Below are positions 25,122 through 33,455 of a stretch of 41,354 nucleotides of DNA, in pieces; within the stretch, counting starts at the first letter, position 1, and each line of letters starts with the position of its first letter. A program made the position numbers and the translations under genes. The stretch is from Terriglobales bacterium. GTDB taxonomy: Bacteria > Acidobacteriota > Terriglobia > Terriglobales > Acidobacteriaceae. The notes below the pieces were generated by a model. It had not been told where the DNA came from and searched no databases. It was given only the letters and a program-made list of their open reading frames with translations. Location of the stretch: positions 1 to 41,354 of the forward strand of contig JAICKN010000004.1 in NCBI GenBank assembly GCA_025927855.1, read 5' to 3'.

Positions 25122-25865
25122 ATGTTGATCTCCTTTTTTATTACTTGCTATAACGACACGCTTTTCCCAGACACCGGAAAAGCCGTCGTTACCGTGTTCG
25201 AGCGCCTGGGCCACACGGTGGAGTTCCGTTCTGCGCAGACCTGTTGCGGTCAAATGCATTACAACACCGGCTACCAGCAATATGCCCTCGACCTGATGCG
25301 CCACTTCGTTGGAGTCTTTTCTAATGCGGAAGTGATTTGCGTTCCTTCCGCTTCCTGCGTTGCCATGATCCGCGATCATTACCCCAAGCTGGCGGCGCAA
25401 TCGGGAGATGCCGAGCTTATTCGGGACATACAAACCCTACTCCCACGAGTGTTCGAATTTTCCGAGTTACTCACCGACCACCTTGGCGTACTCGACGTGG
25501 GAGCATATTTCCCTCACCGGGTCACCTACCATCCTTCCTGCCATTCACTGCGTTCGTTAAAGCTGGGCGATAAGCCTTTGCGCCTGCTGCAACATGTACG
25601 CGGACTGGAACTTCTCGAACTTGATTGCGCGGCCGAATGTTGCGGCTTCGGCGGCACATTCGCGGTTAAAAATGCCGATGTTTCAACAGCGATGCTGACT
25701 GAGAAAACCGCCTGCATTCAGAAGACCGGAGCAGAAATCTGCGTTGCGGCGGACAACTCCTGCCTGCTACATATTGGCGGAGGCTTGAGCCGCCAAGGAA
25801 TCAATATCAAGCGCATGCACCTTGCTGAAATTCTCGCAGCCACGAAATCCGGGAGCGCCGAATGA
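25122..25865 (+). CDS. lutA: L-lactate utilisation protein LutA (Fe-S oxidoreductase subunit)
   Basis: The protein of 247 residues has two cysteine-rich CCG domains: TCCGQMHYNTGY near residue 42, and YHPSCHSLRS plus CCGFGGTF near residues 128-180. These domains bind an iron-sulfur cluster of the heterodisulfide-reductase type. With LutB and LutC it oxidises L-lactate to pyruvate. Its stop overlaps the start of lutB by ATGA, and the three genes are in the standard A-B-C order. Following a rhamnose pathway that yields L-lactate, it would complete conversion to pyruvate. Confidence 0.9.
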   Translation: MLISFFITCYNDTLFPDTGKAVVTVFERLGHTVEFRSAQTCCGQMHYNTGYQQYALDLMRHFVGVFSNAEVICVPSASCVAMIRDHYPKLAAQSGDAELIRDIQTLLPRVFEFSELLTDHLGVLDVGAYFPHRVTYHPSCHSLRSLKLGDKPLRLLQHVRGLELLELDCAAECCGFGGTFAVKNADVSTAMLTEKTACIQKTGAEICVAADNSCLLHIGGGLSRQGINIKRMHLAEILAATKSGSAE

Positions 25866-27355
25866 CGGTACGGGTTGGCGAAGCCGCGCAGGCCCCGGAT
25901 TTTCCTTCTGCATCGCATGAGCTCTTGCAGAACGCGCAGCTACGCCGGAATGTCCGCCGCGCGACCGAAGTCATACGCGCAAAACGAAACCGCGTTGTGG
26001 CCGAAACCCCGGATTGGGAGGAACTACGCGAAGCCGCGCGCCAAATTAAAGACCACACTTTGCGGCATCTTGATTTTTATCTTGAGCAGTTCGAGGAAAA
26101 CTGTTCGCGCGCCGGCGGACAAGTGCATTGGGCACAGGATGCCGACGAGGCCAACCGCATCATCGTCGAGATTCTTCAGGAACGCGGCCATAAAGAAGTC
26201 ATTAAGGTAAAAACCATGACTTCGGATGAAATCGGCCTGAATGCCGCGCTGGAAGGCGAGGCCATCACTCCCTACGAAACTGACTTAGCTGATTTGATCG
26301 TGCAACTTGGGAACGACCGCCCCTCACACATTGTGGTGCCCGCGCTCCACCGTAACCGGAATGAAATAAGGCAGCTCTTCATGGAGAAGATGGGTTTGAA
26401 AGAGTTGGGCGACCGGCCGGAAGACCTTACGGCGGCAGCGCGCGCCTATCTTCGCGATAAATTTTTGCGGGTGGAAGCAGCCATCAGCGGGGCGAACTTC
26501 GCCGTGGCTGAAACCGGATCAGTTTGCGTCGTGGAATCGGAAGGCAATGGGCGTATGTGCCTTTCCCTGCCAAAGCTTTTGATCACCCTCGTCGGCATTG
26601 AGAAAATCATCCCTCACTTTACCGATCTCGAGGTTTTCCTGCAACTTCTTCCGCGTTCCGCCACGGGAGAACGAATGAATCCGTACAACTCCATCTGGAC
26701 GGGATTTTCAGCAAGCGATGGGCCGCAGGAGTTTCATGTCGTTCTGCTCGATAACGGCAGAACGAATGTTTTGGCGGATGCAGATGCAGAAAGCGCGGGA
26801 AGAGCGGCAGGTACAGCAGCCGCAGTTATGTCAGCAGGAGTTACGTCAGCAAAAGACACGCTCGATTGCATCCGCTGTGGGGCCTGCCTGAATGTTTGCC
26901 CGGTGTACCGGCAGACGGGCGGCCACGCCTATGGTTCAGTTTACGCGGGCCCCATTGGAGCAATCCTCACGCCGCAATTGCAATCCATGCAGCATTCGCA
27001 ATCCCTTCCCTATGCTTCCTCTTTGTGCGGAGCGTGTTATGAAGTGTGCCCCGTCAAAATCAATATTCCTGAAATCCTGATTCATCTTCGCAGCAAGATT
27101 GTGGAGCAAGGCGCCGCACCGTTAAGCGAGCGGTGGGAAATGAATGCAGCTGCATTCACACTAGCTCGAAGCAACCGGCTCGCCGTGGCCCAGAAGTTCG
27201 CCCGCGTGGCGCAATGGCCTTTTGAACGGGACGGTTTTCTGCACAACCTTCCCGGCCCCTTTCGGGCATGGCTACAATCGCGGGACTTGCCCGCGCTACC
27301 CAAAGAATCCTTCCGGGAGTGGTGGGCGAAAACAAAAAGAGGCCCCGGGAAATGA
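25862..27355 (+). CDS. lutB: L-lactate utilisation protein LutB (LUD domain and two 4Fe-4S clusters)
   Basis: The protein of 497 residues has an N-terminal LUD domain (about 60-310, including NFAVAETGSVCVVESEGNGR). Two 4Fe-4S motifs follow: CIRCGACLNVCPV (near 335-350) and CGACYEVCPV (near 390-400). The C-terminal helical part ends with an FREWW segment typical of the family. It is the central electron-transfer subunit of the LutABC lactate oxidase. It overlaps lutA by four bases at its start and lutC by four bases at its end, indicating tight co-translation. Confidence 0.92.
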   Translation: MTVRVGEAAQAPDFPSASHELLQNAQLRRNVRRATEVIRAKRNRVVAETPDWEELREAARQIKDHTLRHLDFYLEQFEENCSRAGGQVHWAQDADEANRIIVEILQERGHKEVIKVKTMTSDEIGLNAALEGEAITPYETDLADLIVQLGNDRPSHIVVPALHRNRNEIRQLFMEKMGLKELGDRPEDLTAAARAYLRDKFLRVEAAISGANFAVAETGSVCVVESEGNGRMCLSLPKLLITLVGIEKIIPHFTDLEVFLQLLPRSATGERMNPYNSIWTGFSASDGPQEFHVVLLDNGRTNVLADADAESAGRAAGTAAAVMSAGVTSAKDTLDCIRCGACLNVCPVYRQTGGHAYGSVYAGPIGAILTPQLQSMQHSQSLPYASSLCGACYEVCPVKINIPEILIHLRSKIVEQGAAPLSERWEMNAAAFTLARSNRLAVAQKFARVAQWPFERDGFLHNLPGPFRAWLQSRDLPALPKESFREWWAKTKRGPGK

Positions 27356-27990
27356 TGGACTCAAAAACTGTAGTCCTGCAAAAGATACGGAACGCTTTAC
27401 CGGCACAAAGGGAGCGCCGCGAGCCCGAATACGCCGCCATTCAGCGGAAATATTTGCAGGCAGGCGAACATGACAGCGCCCACAGGCTCGCGCTCTTTGA
27501 ACAACGATTGCGCGACTACGATGCTGGGCTGCATCGCTGCGGGAGTTCCACAATCGCCGAAACTATTGCCGGGGTTTTGCGTGAACGCCAAAAGAAGTCT
27601 TTGCTGGTTGCGGCGGAGATTCCCGTCAAATGGCTTCCACAGAATCTTACCTTCGTCCACAACGACGCCCTGACCTATGCAGAAATTGATCATAGTGAAG
27701 GCGTTTTGACCGGGTGCGCAACCGCCATCGCGTCCACGGGAACCATTGTGCTTCGGCATTCAAATGAGGCTGGCGGACGAGCGCTCACGCTCATCCCCGA
27801 TTACCACTTATGCATTGTGCATGCTGAGAAAGTTGTGGAAACTGTGCCGGAAGGTTTGCGGCAAATGGCGTCTTTTGCGGCAGCCGCTATCACGATGATT
27901 TCTGGACCGTCGGCGACTTCGGACATCGAAATGACCCGCATTAAGGGCGTGCACGGTCCGAGAACCCTGGACGTGATTTTAGTGATCTGA
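27352..27990 (+). CDS. lutC: L-lactate utilisation protein LutC (LUD domain)
   Basis: The start was set at the ATG at 27352 that overlaps the lutB stop (ATGA); a second ATG follows directly. The product of about 212 residues is a LUD-domain protein, recognisable by SEGVLTGCATAIASTGTIVL and by HLCIVHAEKVVETVPEGL, ending in IKGVHGPRTLDVILV. It is the third subunit of the LutABC complex. The gene ends 9 bases before the convergent end of the SDR gene, and no terminator is evident. Confidence 0.9.
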   Translation: MMDSKTVVLQKIRNALPAQRERREPEYAAIQRKYLQAGEHDSAHRLALFEQRLRDYDAGLHRCGSSTIAETIAGVLRERQKKSLLVAAEIPVKWLPQNLTFVHNDALTYAEIDHSEGVLTGCATAIASTGTIVLRHSNEAGGRALTLIPDYHLCIVHAEKVVETVPEGLRQMASFAAAAITMISGPSATSDIEMTRIKGVHGPRTLDVILVI

Positions 27991-27999
27991 ATGCCGCAG

Positions 28000-28737
28000 T
28001 TACAGCACTCCGATGCTGGGGCGAATGACCAATTCTTCTATGGTCGCGCTCTCCGGAATGGCCAGAGCGTTCACAACCGCTGTCGCCACGGCCTCCGGCG
28101 GCATCATCTTTTTTCGTGGAGCATCGGGCCAAACGGCTTTCCAGATGGCAGTGTCAGTCGCGCCGGGCAACAACGCGATCACACGAATCTTTTTAGGTCG
28201 AAGTTCTTCCCTTAATGTATTGGTAAATCCCAGCGCGCCGTGTTTGGAAGCACAGTAGGCCGCTGAGCCGGGGAACACCTCTTTGGCGGCGATCGAGAGA
28301 TTGTTGACAATCGCCGAGCCGCTCCTCATCAAAGGGAGCGCCGCCTGCGTCACAAGAAATGTTCCCGTCAGGTTGGTTTCGATTACTTCGCTCCAGGAGT
28401 CAAGAGGCAGCTCCGCGATATTTTTGCTCACCTGGCCGATGCCTGCATTGTTGATAAGAATATCGAGCCGATCAAAGCGCTGCTTCAGGCCCGCAAACAA
28501 AGCACGAACCGAGCGGAGATCGCGTATGTCGCAAATCATTGGCACGGCTCTTTTATTTGCGAGCTCTTTGGCCGCGCGATCCAACTTTTCTTGTGTGCGG
28601 CCAGTGATAACCACTTCGCAGCCCTCTGCCAGGAGCGCGCGGGCAATGGCCAGACCTATGCCCTGCGTTCCTCCGGTAACCAGTGCGGTTTGTTTGGAGA
28701 GCCGCCGTAAAATAGGAGCCGAGCGCCGGGAAGCCAT
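28000..28737 (-). CDS. Short-chain dehydrogenase/reductase (candidate sepiapterin-reductase-like)
   Basis: The start ATG at 28737 overlaps the folE stop in the form TAATG; a longer frame into folE is unlikely. The 245-residue protein is a classical SDR with the NADP-binding TGGTQGIG (near 21-28), NNAG (near 92), a catalytic Ser in NNLSIAA and Tyr-x-x-x-Lys in YCASK (near 160-164). An Arg after the second strand (TGR) fits NADPH preference. It is the last gene of a GTP-cyclohydrolase/PTPS operon, so reduction of a pterin side chain, as sepiapterin reductase does, is the likely role. The family alone does not prove this; it could also be a fatty-acid or sugar SDR. Confidence 0.8.
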   Translation of the reverse strand: MASRRSAPILRRLSKQTALVTGGTQGIGLAIARALLAEGCEVVITGRTQEKLDRAAKELANKRAVPMICDIRDLRSVRALFAGLKQRFDRLDILINNAGIGQVSKNIAELPLDSWSEVIETNLTGTFLVTQAALPLMRSGSAIVNNLSIAAKEVFPGSAAYCASKHGALGFTNTLREELRPKKIRVIALLPGATDTAIWKAVWPDAPRKKMMPPEAVATAVVNALAIPESATIEELVIRPSIGVL

Positions 28738-29336
28738 TAAATGCCGTTGCTCCGGTTGCGAATTAGCGACAAGAATTCTGTGCGCGTTTCCTCCTCCTCG
28801 CGGAAGCAACCAAGCATGGAGGATGTGACGGCGGCGGAATGCTGCTTCTCAACTCCGCGCATCATCATGCAAAGATGGCGCGCCTCAATCACAACACCGA
28901 CGCCTTGCGGAGTAATCGCCTGCTGGATCGTTTCGGCAATTTGCGTCGTGAGGCGTTCCTGTATTTGCAACCGGCGGGAAAAAATTTCGATGAGCCGCGG
29001 AATTTTGCTCAGGCCTATGACCTTTCCGTTCGGGATGTAGGCGACATGCACCTTGCCGAAAAACGGCAGCATGTGATGTTCGCACAGGCTGAACATCTCG
29101 ACATCTTTCACGATCACCATTTCGTCATAGGTCACGGTGAAAAGCGCCTTCTTCAGCATGGCCTCGGGATCTTCGCGGTAGCCTTTGGTCAGGAATTCGT
29201 AGGCCCGGTGGACGCGCTCGGGCGTTCGAACCAGTCCTTCCCGCTCAGGGTCTTCGCCCAGGCGGACGATCATTTCACGGACAAGTTCTTCAAAGGTTGC
29301 GCTGGTCAATGTTGCGGCTTCGGCCGGTGTCTTCAT
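28737..29336 (-). CDS. folE: GTP cyclohydrolase I
   Basis: The enzyme of 199 residues converts GTP to 7,8-dihydroneopterin triphosphate. Family motifs are clear: [21 protein letters not shown] with the zinc ligands Cys and His, [23 protein letters not shown], and the C-terminal zinc Cys in [16 protein letters not shown] ribosome-binding site precedes the ATG. It is the first committed enzyme for folate or biopterin. Here it lies 15 bases after the second PTPS gene and overlaps the SDR gene by one base, and no folB/folK/folP genes are nearby; this points to pterin synthesis other than folate. Confidence 0.96.
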
Positions 29337-29351
29337 CCTCTCACTCCTCGC

Positions 29352-29774
29352 TCAATGACGAATTTTCCCGCCGCCGGCATACTCGAAAGAATTCATCATC
29401 GTCTCTTCAACCCTTATCTTTTCCAGATGAGCTTGGCTGAATCCGCGCTGCAAAATTTGATAAAGGGTGACGCACAGGTTTTCAGTAGTCGGCACAACAT
29501 CGGCAAATTCCTGCATCGTATTCAGATTTTGCAGGTCAAATTTTTCTACAATCTCGGCCTTCACGAACCCATCCAGGTCGGCAAGATTGCAAACCATCCC
29601 GGTGTTTTCTGCCACCTGTCCGCTGACCGTTACTTCCAGGAAATAGTTGTGCCCGTGTCCGTATGGATTGTTGCACTTTCCGTATGCCGCGCGATTTTCT
29701 TCCGCCGACATTTCCGGGCTATGCAGCCGGTGCGAAGCGGAAAAACGATAGCGCCTTGTCAGGTAAGCTTTCAT
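29352..29774 (-). CDS. 6-pyruvoyl-tetrahydropterin-synthase-like protein, copy 2 (altered active site)
   Basis: The start at 29774 overlaps the stop of copy 1 (ATGA) and gives 140 residues. Zinc-binding His 15, 40 and 42 and the catalytic Cys 34 (KCNNPYGHGHNY) are kept. The Asp-His pair of the proton relay reads D80-L81 (FDLQNLN), so the catalytic His is missing. PTTENL and the C-terminal Glu (VEET) are kept. The KCNN motif is closer to true PTPS than to QueD. It may be an altered-activity paralogue, or a partner of copy 1 in a mixed hexamer. Identity with copy 1 is modest but clear along the whole length. Confidence 0.88.
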   Translation of the reverse strand: MKAYLTRRYRFSASHRLHSPEMSAEENRAAYGKCNNPYGHGHNYFLEVTVSGQVAENTGMVCNLADLDGFVKAEIVEKFDLQNLNTMQEFADVVPTTENLCVTLYQILQRGFSQAHLEKIRVEETMMNSFEYAGGGKIRH

Positions 29775-30181
29775 GCTTCCCCATAAAAATCCGCAAACAG
29801 GTCTGGCGTTTCGTAGACACGCACGCGATGTAACTGCGCGGCTTTTAATTTGGGCGCCAGGCGTTGCCACGCAACAATGGCAAGATTTTCCGTAGTCGGA
29901 ACTTTTGCAAAAAATTCCGGCACTTCTTTGTTGAGAAAACGATGGTCCATGGCGTCGAGAACTTCGCGATTCAGTACTTCTTTCAATTCTTTCAGGTCCA
30001 CGACAAATCCTGATTGCGGATTTATTTCGCCTTTTACTGTGACTTCAAGGGTGTAGTTGTGCCCGTGGCCATTGGGATTGTTGCATTTGCCGAATATGCG
30101 CTGATTCTCTTCCGCCGTAAAGTTTGGATTGTGGTAATAATGCGAGGCGGCGAATTCAGCTTTGCGCGTAAGATAAACCAT
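29771..30181 (-). CDS. 6-pyruvoyl-tetrahydropterin synthase-like protein, copy 1
   Basis: The protein has 136 residues and a complete PTPS active site: zinc ligands H14, H39 and H41, catalytic C33 in GKCNNPNGHGHNY, the D79-H80 pair in MDHRFLN, and the pterin-anchoring Glu in VYET (about 124). The sequence around the Cys is the same as in animal PTPS, whereas QueD of E. coli differs there. The reaction would be 7,8-dihydroneopterin triphosphate to 6-pyruvoyl-tetrahydropterin. A GAGG ribosome-binding site lies at the end of the upstream glycosyltransferase gene, 8 bases away. Annotation pipelines may call it QueD, but no queC, queE or queF is present nearby. Confidence 0.9.
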   Translation of the reverse strand: MVYLTRKAEFAASHYYHNPNFTAEENQRIFGKCNNPNGHGHNYTLEVTVKGEINPQSGFVVDLKELKEVLNREVLDAMDHRFLNKEVPEFFAKVPTTENLAIVAWQRLAPKLKAAQLHRVRVYETPDLFADFYGEA

Positions 30182-32002: not shown

Positions 32003-32168
32003 ATTGGAATGGAATTTATTCGGGCAAACGCAGGCGGCCAATGTCATCGCAGGTTGCAGAAGGAGAACTGTTGGTTGGGGCATTGCCCCTGCTATCCTGA
32101 ACAGTTTAGAAAATATTGGCAGTCCGCCAATCGAAATTAGAATCCGCGATCAGAATGGAAGGAGAACC

Positions 32169-32876
32169 ATGCGAAAAATCTCAATCGCTTTTTTTCTTTT
32201 AATTTTTAGCGTTGCGTACTCTACGGCACAAACTCCGGCCCATAAATCGGCGTCCGCAAGTGCTGCTGCTTCGGATCAGCCCACTGCAATTATTCATACG
32301 ACGGCCGGGAATCTTACCTGCAAGCTTTTCCCGGACAAGGCCCCCATTGGAGTTGCAAATTTTATTGGCTTGGCCACCGGGAAGAAAGACTGGATTAACC
32401 CCAAAACCGGGAAAAAAGAGCACTTGGTCCCTCTTTACAATGGCACCATTTTCCATCGTGTAATTCCGAATTTTATGATTCAGGGCGGCGATCCCAAGGG
32501 CGACGGAACCGGAGATATTGGCTACACCTTTAAGAATGAGACGTCGCCTGACCTGACATTCGACCGGCCCGGACGCCTGGCGTATGCCAACGCCGGACCG
32601 GACACAAATGGATCGCAGTTCTTTGTGACCGAAGTTCCCTATCCTAGCCTGGATGGAAATTACACCATCTTCGGACAATGCGACGACGCCAGCGTGGCGC
32701 TGGTAAAGCAGATCGCCCGCATGGCCCGAGGTCCGGATGACAAGCCCTACGATCCGGTCAAGATCACTCACATCACCATTTTGCGCCATGCGGCAGTTCA
32801 CCATGCCGCGCCCGCGAAATCTTCGCCGCATACAACGCACAGCACGCACCATTCTTCGCCGACTACAGCGAAATGA
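32169..32876 (+). CDS. Exported cyclophilin-type peptidyl-prolyl isomerase with His-rich tail
   Basis: The ATG at 32169 has a strong AAGGAGAA site and gives 235 residues with a signal peptide cleaved near AQ|TP (about residue 21). The cyclophilin domain shows the catalytic Arg in FHRVIPNFMIQGGDP, and NTNGSQFFVT-like NAGPDTNGSQFFVTEV, with GNYTIFG. A helix-free insertion (KDWINPKTGKKEHLV) is shared with the next gene. The last 30 residues are rich in His, Ser and Thr (about seven His), which might bind metal. It assists folding in the periplasm. The next cyclophilin gene follows after 51 bases. Confidence 0.9.
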   Translation: MRKISIAFFLLIFSVAYSTAQTPAHKSASASAAASDQPTAIIHTTAGNLTCKLFPDKAPIGVANFIGLATGKKDWINPKTGKKEHLVPLYNGTIFHRVIPNFMIQGGDPKGDGTGDIGYTFKNETSPDLTFDRPGRLAYANAGPDTNGSQFFVTEVPYPSLDGNYTIFGQCDDASVALVKQIARMARGPDDKPYDPVKITHITILRHAAVHHAAPAKSSPHTTHSTHHSSPTTAK

Positions 32877-32927
32877 CGCGATAAAGAAACGAACGTTAAA
32901 CATAACTCTGCAAAGGAAAGGATTCTC

Positions 32928-33455
32928 ATGGCCCGCCAGCCCGGCACGTACGCAGTTTTCACCACTTCTGAAGGCAACATTGTTTGCCGCCTTTTCGAAA
33001 AAGATGCACCGAAAACAGTGCAGAACTTCACTGATCTTGCCGAGGGCAAGCGGGAGTGGACGCATCCTGTTTCCCGCAAGAAGAGTTCTGACCGTCTTTA
33101 CGACGGGACCATTTTTCACCGTGTAATTCCAAACTTTATGATCCAGGGTGGCGACCCGGCCGGAACCGGCTACGGTGGCCCCGGCTACCAATTTGAAGAC
33201 GAAACCAAAGGCTCCCCGCATAAATTCGATAAGCCCGGCAAGCTGGCGATGGCGAACTCGGGGCCGAACACAAACGGCTCGCAGATTTTCATCACAGTAG
33301 CGGCGACTCCCTGGCTCACGGGAAATCACACGATTTTTGGGGAGGTCGTGGAAGGCCAGGACATTGCAAACAAAATCGCAAATGTGCCACGCGGACGGCA
33401 AGACAAACCTAATCAGGACGTGATTGTGCGGTCAGTAGCAATTGAAAGGGTTTAG
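32928..33455 (+). CDS. Cytoplasmic cyclophilin-type peptidyl-prolyl isomerase
   Basis: The protein has 175 residues without a signal peptide and contains FHRVIPNFMIQGGDPAGTG, NSGPNTNGSQIFITV and GNHTIFG, all characteristic of cyclophilin A/PpiB. The ATG has an AAAGGA site about 7 bases upstream. Its closest relative in the window is the upstream exported cyclophilin; the pair is a tandem duplication with one secreted and one cytoplasmic copy. It catalyses cis-trans isomerisation of X-Pro bonds. A stem-loop follows the gene. Confidence 0.92.
   Translation: MARQPGTYAVFTTSEGNIVCRLFEKDAPKTVQNFTDLAEGKREWTHPVSRKKSSDRLYDGTIFHRVIPNFMIQGGDPAGTGYGGPGYQFEDETKGSPHKFDKPGKLAMANSGPNTNGSQIFITVAATPWLTGNHTIFGEVVEGQDIANKIANVPRGRQDKPNQDVIVRSVAIERV

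Follow-up and report, generated by a model that had tools for sequence, protein, structure and literature searches.

Recurrent loss of the Asp-His pair in one of two tandem PTPS copies points to a putative split-site hetero-oligomeric enzyme in Acidobacteriota

Introduction

The substrate of PTPS is dihydroneopterin triphosphate, the product of FolE. In rat PTPS the part of the active site that is given in trans is taken to be Asp88-His89. The title of a 1995 paper by Burgisser refers to an 'intersubunit catalytic triad motif' of this enzyme. PTPS has six sites, each placed between three adjacent monomers, in an assembly of two head-to-head trimers (PMC7546909), and the Cys of the enzyme has been credited with proton abstraction (PMC2229834). 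The family COG0720 contains subfamilies with different reactions, for which motif definitions (CxxxxxHGH and others) are given in PMC5041015.

Among the described systems, PTPS-II (rat 1b66/1gtq, human 3i2b) resembles the tandem pair reported here in its fold, its three zinc His, its CxxxxxHGH spacing and its Glu, and copy 1 of the pair also has the Asp-His. However, the known enzyme is described as a hexamer of identical subunits (PMC7546909 and PMC10767420), whereas here there are two paralogues, one of them without the catalytic His. QueD/PTPS-I and the PTPS-I/III hybrids are members of the same COG0720/Pfam family, and a third PTPS copy of the same genome belongs with them, but QueD/PTPS-I has the spacing CxxxHGH where the pair has CxxxxxHGH. 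In the bimodular QueF of V. cholerae and E. coli, each of two tandem T-fold domains contributes part of the active site (PMC5372742); the T-fold and the duplication are common to both systems, and the split elements would be too, but QueF has another reaction and another motif and is one fused chain, whereas the pair is encoded by two separate genes. In trypanosomes, the active enzyme AdoMetDC likewise works in a complex with a degraded, dead paralogue, the prozyme (PMC5201418); in that system the dead partner relieves autoinhibition, whereas the two halves considered here appear to share catalytic residues. A literature search at the level of titles and abstracts, with most subscription papers outside its coverage, returned no heteromeric or split-site PTPS.

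Results

The DNA analysed (the window; 41,354 nucleotides of contig JAICKN010000004.1 from a Terriglobales bacterium, assembly GCA_025927855.1) carries on its minus strand a cluster in the order glycosyltransferase family 2, PTPS copy 1, PTPS copy 2, folE and SDR (Table 1). The start of copy 2 and the stop of copy 1 share the four bases ATGA. The SDR matched sepiapterin reductase 2bd0 with an E value of 1.2e-30 (20th of 197 matched sequences), and is a possible candidate for a sepiapterin-reductase-like step. Elsewhere in the window, the three plus-strand genes listed in Table 1 resemble a LutA/LutB/LutC lactate-utilisation set, and two adjoining genes each encode a cyclophilin-type peptidyl-prolyl isomerase.

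Table 1. Positions of the features discussed; a locus code precedes positions that lie outside the window.
Feature	Position	Strand	Remarks
PTPS copy 1	29771..30181	-	136 aa; Zn His14/39/41, Cys33, Asp79-His80, Glu124; residues by alignment
PTPS copy 2	29352..29774	-	140 aa from ATG 29774; Zn His15/40/42, Cys34, Glu124; Asp80-Leu81
Asp80-Leu81 codons of copy 2	29532..29537	-	GAC CTG; plus strand reads caggtc
folE, GTP cyclohydrolase I	28737..29336	-	PF01227 260.9 bits; TIGR00063 above cut-off; directly 3' of copy 2
Short-chain dehydrogenase/reductase (SDR)	28000..28734	-	adh_short; start provisional
Three Lut-like genes	25122-27990	+	CCG, LUD plus 4Fe-4S, and LUD domains
Two cyclophilin-type genes	32004-33455	+	PF00160 in each
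Third PTPS, QueD-like	L001:1495-1872	+	other contig; GKCENPHGHNY, the CExxHGH motif of QueD/PTPS-III hybrids
Three-domain PTPS frame, family f77	L262:1527-3113	-	
Three-domain PTPS frame, family f77	L263:1537-2829	-	
Divergent PTPS of G356	L159:3771-4274	+	without Cys and Asp-His

Both copies scored far above the cut-off of Pfam PF01242 (129.5 bits for copy 1 and 109.1 bits for copy 2; cut-off 22.4). The top NCBIfam match of both was TIGR00039, yet its curated cut-off of 125.5 was missed (92.5 and 86.8 bits). The closest solved structure for both was rat PTPS (1b66; E 2.5e-38 for copy 1 and 1.6e-34 for copy 2). The PTPS-II motif CxxxxxHGH is present in each, as CNNPNGHGH and CNNPYGHGH, together with the three zinc His, the Cys and the Glu of PTPS-II; the PTPS-III motif ExxHGH is absent from both, and the QueD (PTPS-I) spacing CxxxHGH was not found in the pair. 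The PTPS-II Asp-His pair, in contrast, is present in copy 1 but not in copy 2. In an alignment in which the copies are 44% identical, Asp80-Leu81 of copy 2 falls opposite Asp79-His80 of copy 1, and rat PTPS 1b66 has Asp-His ('plDhkNLd') at the same aligned place. The first-pass annotation had described an Asp-Leu at this site beside retained zinc ligands, Cys and C-terminal Glu; the codons and the alignment bear out the substitution, and the retained residues of copy 2 align with those of other family members. The Leu codon CTG lies two substitutions away from either His codon, so that one base error would not create Leu81.

The AlphaFold model of copy 2 shows a confident PTPS fold (pLDDT 90.2), with PTPS 1gtq as its best solved match (E 1.3e-16, TM 0.91). 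The pN/pS of copy 2 was 0.20-0.27 in 12 of 12 comparisons, with synonymous sites near or at saturation, indicating purifying selection and upholding the earlier description of copy 2 as a selected paralogue. Because copy 2 is under purifying selection and has a confident PTPS fold, the change that it carries is, as judged from these data, not random decay.

We then compared orthologous pairs from the window's family (f1) and near relatives. Of 185 loci, 174 had both copies, 10 had one and 1 had none, and the merging of identical pairs gave a widest set of 134 distinct pairs, to which named records contributed 51 and the G-numbered genomes 83. One f1 locus (L138) was left out of this set. Loci L034-L113 do not carry the f1 code; their 66-77% similarity to copy 2, together with the record titles, placed them in the window's family. 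Short domains were dropped before counting (5 in a first set, 6 in a larger overlapping set and 7 in the 134-pair set). Both copies were full in 79 pairs, only the Asp-His of copy 2 was altered in 53, and in 2 the Cys of copy 1 and the Asp-His of copy 2 were both lost; no other combination occurred. Copy 1 had Asp-His, zinc ligands and Glu in 134/134 and Cys in 132/134, while copy 2 had Cys, zinc ligands and Glu in 134/134 and Asp-His in 79/134 (Fisher p 5e-20, with relatedness ignored). In the first set (80 unique copy 1 and 87 unique copy 2 sequences), Asp-His was present in 80/80 of copy 1, and copy 2 had Asp in 61/87, His in 49/87 and Cys, zinc His and Glu in 87/87; in the larger overlapping set, copy 1 (n=112) had Asp-His in 112/112 and Cys in 110/112, and copy 2 (n=120) had Cys, zinc ligands and Glu in 120/120 and Asp-His in 67/120. 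The altered fraction of copy 2 was 24/51 among named records and 31/83 among the G genomes.

The alterations were diverse. Among the 55 altered copy 2 sequences, in which 14 altered Asp-His states were found, 43 were without the His and 12 retained it with the Asp gone. The His was replaced by Leu in 25, Gln in 6, Ile in 4, Arg in 3, Val in 2, and Lys, Phe and Glu in 1 each. The first-pass annotation had asked whether Leu is a conserved feature of copy 2 or His is usual among its orthologues, the latter marking a strain-specific mutation. His proved to be common, in keeping with the 79 intact pairs, but the strain-specific reading fails on the 55 altered ones, and Leu is not a conserved residue. 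In both f1 genomes in which copy 1 has lost its Cys, the Asp-His of copy 2 is lost too: G041, the one other genome of the window's genus that was examined and taken to be the same as L062, has Ser for Cys in copy 1 and Asp-Ile in copy 2, and G189/L026 has Thr for Cys in copy 1 and Asn-Leu at the Asp-His site of copy 2.

A tree of 120 copy 2 sequences was built without the Asp and His columns. Parsimony required at least 16 changes for the presence of His and at least 21 for intact Asp-His, the latter being also clustered on the tree (shuffled mean 39.5); when just the starred (well-supported) branches are considered, no more than 3 changes of the Asp-His state are required. The window's copy 2 grouped (support 84) with one Asp-His and two Gly-Leu sequences. 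Asp-His is probably the ancestral state of copy 2, and within the window's family and near relatives its loss, as read from these sequences, has recurred and affects copy 2 only.

Gene order was constant, with copy 1 upstream of copy 2 in 134/134 pairs when scored by domain position (open reading frame starts would place copy 2 upstream in 3/134), and the copies overlapped by 4 bases in 75/134. PTPS-PTPS-folE occurred in this order at 134/147 near-relative loci, and at one more with an extra PTPS piece; the remaining loci were without one member within the stretch covered. An SDR was present at 73/147, many of the stretches ending early.

Across the phylum, a search with copy 2 had a match in 57/247 genomes, and a profile search based on the fused proteins had a match in 88/396 genomes, a sample overlapping the 247. 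Complementary losses were found in 16 genomes of eight families, with fused copies in three of them (f13, f7 and f77). In these genomes one copy or domain has Cys, Glu and zinc ligands without an intact Asp-His, and the other has Asp-His without the Cys and often without the Glu or a zinc ligand. In the two-domain fusions of f13 (G310, G406, G482, G496 and G546), the N-domain keeps Asp-His with Cys changed to Arg or His and Glu to Thr or Ala, and the C-domain keeps Cys and Glu with QG or SG in place of Asp-His. The f7 fusion (G304) has Lys for Cys beside Asp-His in its N-domain, and Cys beside Asp-Cys in its C-domain. In f77 (G617 and G634), a single frame encodes three domains, of which the first two score weakly and have Asp-His but lack the Cys, and the third has Cys, zinc ligands and Glu and QM or DG; one such chain is possibly a whole trimer. 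In f33 (G348, G384 and G450), f65 (G465) and f79 (G548), the pocket copy has Cys, zinc ligands and Glu with DR, DC or ER, and the Asp-His copy has neither Cys nor Glu, with one or two of its three zinc ligands missing (HYH or RYH); these two genes lie on different contigs, and many of the genomes are MAGs, in which unlinked pairs could be mis-binned. The adjacent genes of f52 (G432) encode one copy with Cys and RG and another that has Asp-His and HFH but Leu in place of the Cys. The two f1 genomes described above complete the list.

In f2 (G460 and G558), the only loss is the Cys of copy 1, copy 2 being full; as f2 shows, losses in these sequences do not follow one set order. Both copies were full in 4/4 f16 genomes examined, and a single full copy with no partner in the stretches examined was found in f4, f9, f24, f39, f44, f83 and f87. 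One of the two copies of G356 is full; the other, which lies near it, is without the Cys and without Asp-His, and a glycosyltransferase-like open reading frame separates the two. Among the sets with both members examined, no element was absent from every copy. G626 (L228) and G611 (L254), with one member each, were left uncounted, and low-scoring QueD-like or divergent PTPS of 28-74 bits (L161, L163, L166, L167, L169, L171, L172, L174, L175, L177-L180 and L185) were not counted as pair members; G384, G450 and G465, among the 16 genomes, have one extra low-scoring copy each. A tree of 73 domains gave 16 state changes by parsimony, but the starred branches on their own require just 1-2 per class. 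The f33, f65 and f79 pairs probably have one common origin, and f7, f13 and f77 may have another, which together with f1 and f52 would make at least four lineages of complementary loss; branch support is low and their independence is uncertain.

Discussion

Judging by which residues are lost, how often and from which copy, and by the gene order, we consider it likely that the two copies are subunits of a single hetero-oligomeric enzyme of PTPS type, with the working pocket in copy 2 and Asp-His supplied in trans by copy 1. In such an enzyme zinc, Cys and Glu would be supplied by one subunit and Asp-His by its neighbour, and with copy 2 as the pocket its own His would be dispensable. The reciprocal sites, made of the copy 1 pocket and the copy 2 Asp-His, would be dispensable too and could decay. 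In the window's family this decay would mostly have removed the Asp-His of copy 2, and in two genomes the Cys of copy 1 as well; the model would also allow the f2 route, which began with the Cys of copy 1. As stoichiometry, two trimers face to face, one of each copy, would fit. In the mixed assembly copy 1 would lend the Asp-His, which could explain why Leu, Ile, Gln and other residues are tolerated at this site of copy 2 while its Cys is invariant, and why copy 1, as the putative donor, shows no Asp-His loss in 134 pairs; the mixed assembly would also account for the position of the f1 Cys losses beside a copy 2 without Asp-His and for the overlap or fusion of the genes.

The assignment of Asp-His as the trans part draws on the rat biochemistry and the Burgisser title. 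The complementary losses are consistent with this assignment: Asp-His retained in subunits without most of the pocket, and a pocket retained without Asp-His, fit a residue pair working in trans. In principle, Asp-His could be conserved in the donors as structural residues, against which the fold of copy 2 does without it. Against a shared site stand the completeness of the window's copy 1, which could work alone, the pairs with both copies full, f16, the full copy 2 of f2, the unlinked genes of f33, f65 and f79, and the single-copy families.

The first-pass annotation had offered a structural partner as one role for copy 2. The partnership with copy 1 is retained here in a stronger form, with shared active sites most likely, as opposed to a catalytically dead structural or regulatory subunit beside copy 1 sites that do all the catalysis. 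A dead partner would suit the complete copy 1 of the window and the higher pN/pS of copy 2 than of copy 1 in 10/11 genomes compared for both, but the invariant Cys, zinc His and Glu of copy 2 would be odd for a dead pocket, and the Cys loss falls on copy 1 (L026, L062/G041 and f2); we regard this explanation as improbable. It is very unlikely that copy 2 alone catalyses a different step without Asp-His, such as the side-chain cleavage or epimerisation proposed earlier. COG0720 subfamilies do differ in reaction (PMC5041015), and the pocket stays intact while Asp-His varies; however, the position is relaxed, with no fixed new residue in place of the His, Asp-His is retained in most sister lineages, and the pair is without the folate-type ExxHGH motif. 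Moreover, in the 16 genomes the partner without Cys retains Asp-His, which would make sense only if the halves cooperate. Ordinary relaxation, with copy 2 a redundant PTPS drifting toward loss and no joint site, would account for the many alterations of Asp-His but is very unlikely, given the invariant pocket, purifying selection, the constant gene order, the complementary losses in eight families, and 0/134 pairs in which the same element was lost in both copies or the Cys of copy 2 was lost beside a full copy 1.

Extending the shared-site reading to the phylum, it seems rather probable from the sequence comparisons that PTPS of Acidobacteriota repeatedly turned into an obligate split-site hetero-oligomer after duplication, with a zinc/Cys/Glu pocket copy and a trans Asp-His copy encoded by separate genes or by two- and three-domain fusions, and that the window's genus stands between an intermediate and the finished state. 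Under this reading copy 2 would no longer count as damaged or repurposed. The genomes would form a natural gradient, with two full copies at one end and mutual dependence at the other, along which an intersubunit-site enzyme would become a heteromer by complementary loss. Annotation of each copy on its own can yield wrong functions, and the natural variants make the intersubunit triad of PTPS testable.

As a first guess from the motif and the neighbours (FolE and SDR), the pair would make 6-pyruvoyl-tetrahydropterin in a BH4-like route. A cofactor for aromatic amino acid hydroxylase was rejected as its purpose: PF00351 was not found in the window's own genome (completeness 90%), and it occurred in 21/57 phylum genomes with a copy-2-like protein versus 64/190 without (p 0.75). 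Here a copy-2-like protein is a match with E 1e-20 or better, and some of the 57 genomes come from single-copy families, while one family accounts for 27 of them.

FolB (PF02152) was not found in the window's own genome either, and among the 247 phylum genomes it was above cut-off in 3/57 with a copy-2-like protein (G304, G306 and G446) versus 74/190 without; G263 had a weak match below cut-off, and FolK was present in 55 of the 57. According to PMC4674097, many bacteria, Acidobacteria among them, have no folB, and PTPS-III can replace FolB. A folate role (FolB bypass) of the pair in f1 was set aside, because the third, QueD/PTPS-III-type copy better explains the loss of FolB: its CExxHGH motif was found in 21/21 f1 genomes examined. 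In the window's genome a radical SAM gene follows this copy, and its product was read as QueE by inspection. The QueD-like copy of f13 was without the Glu of CExxHGH in 4/4 genomes examined, and the f13 fusions may have a folate role.
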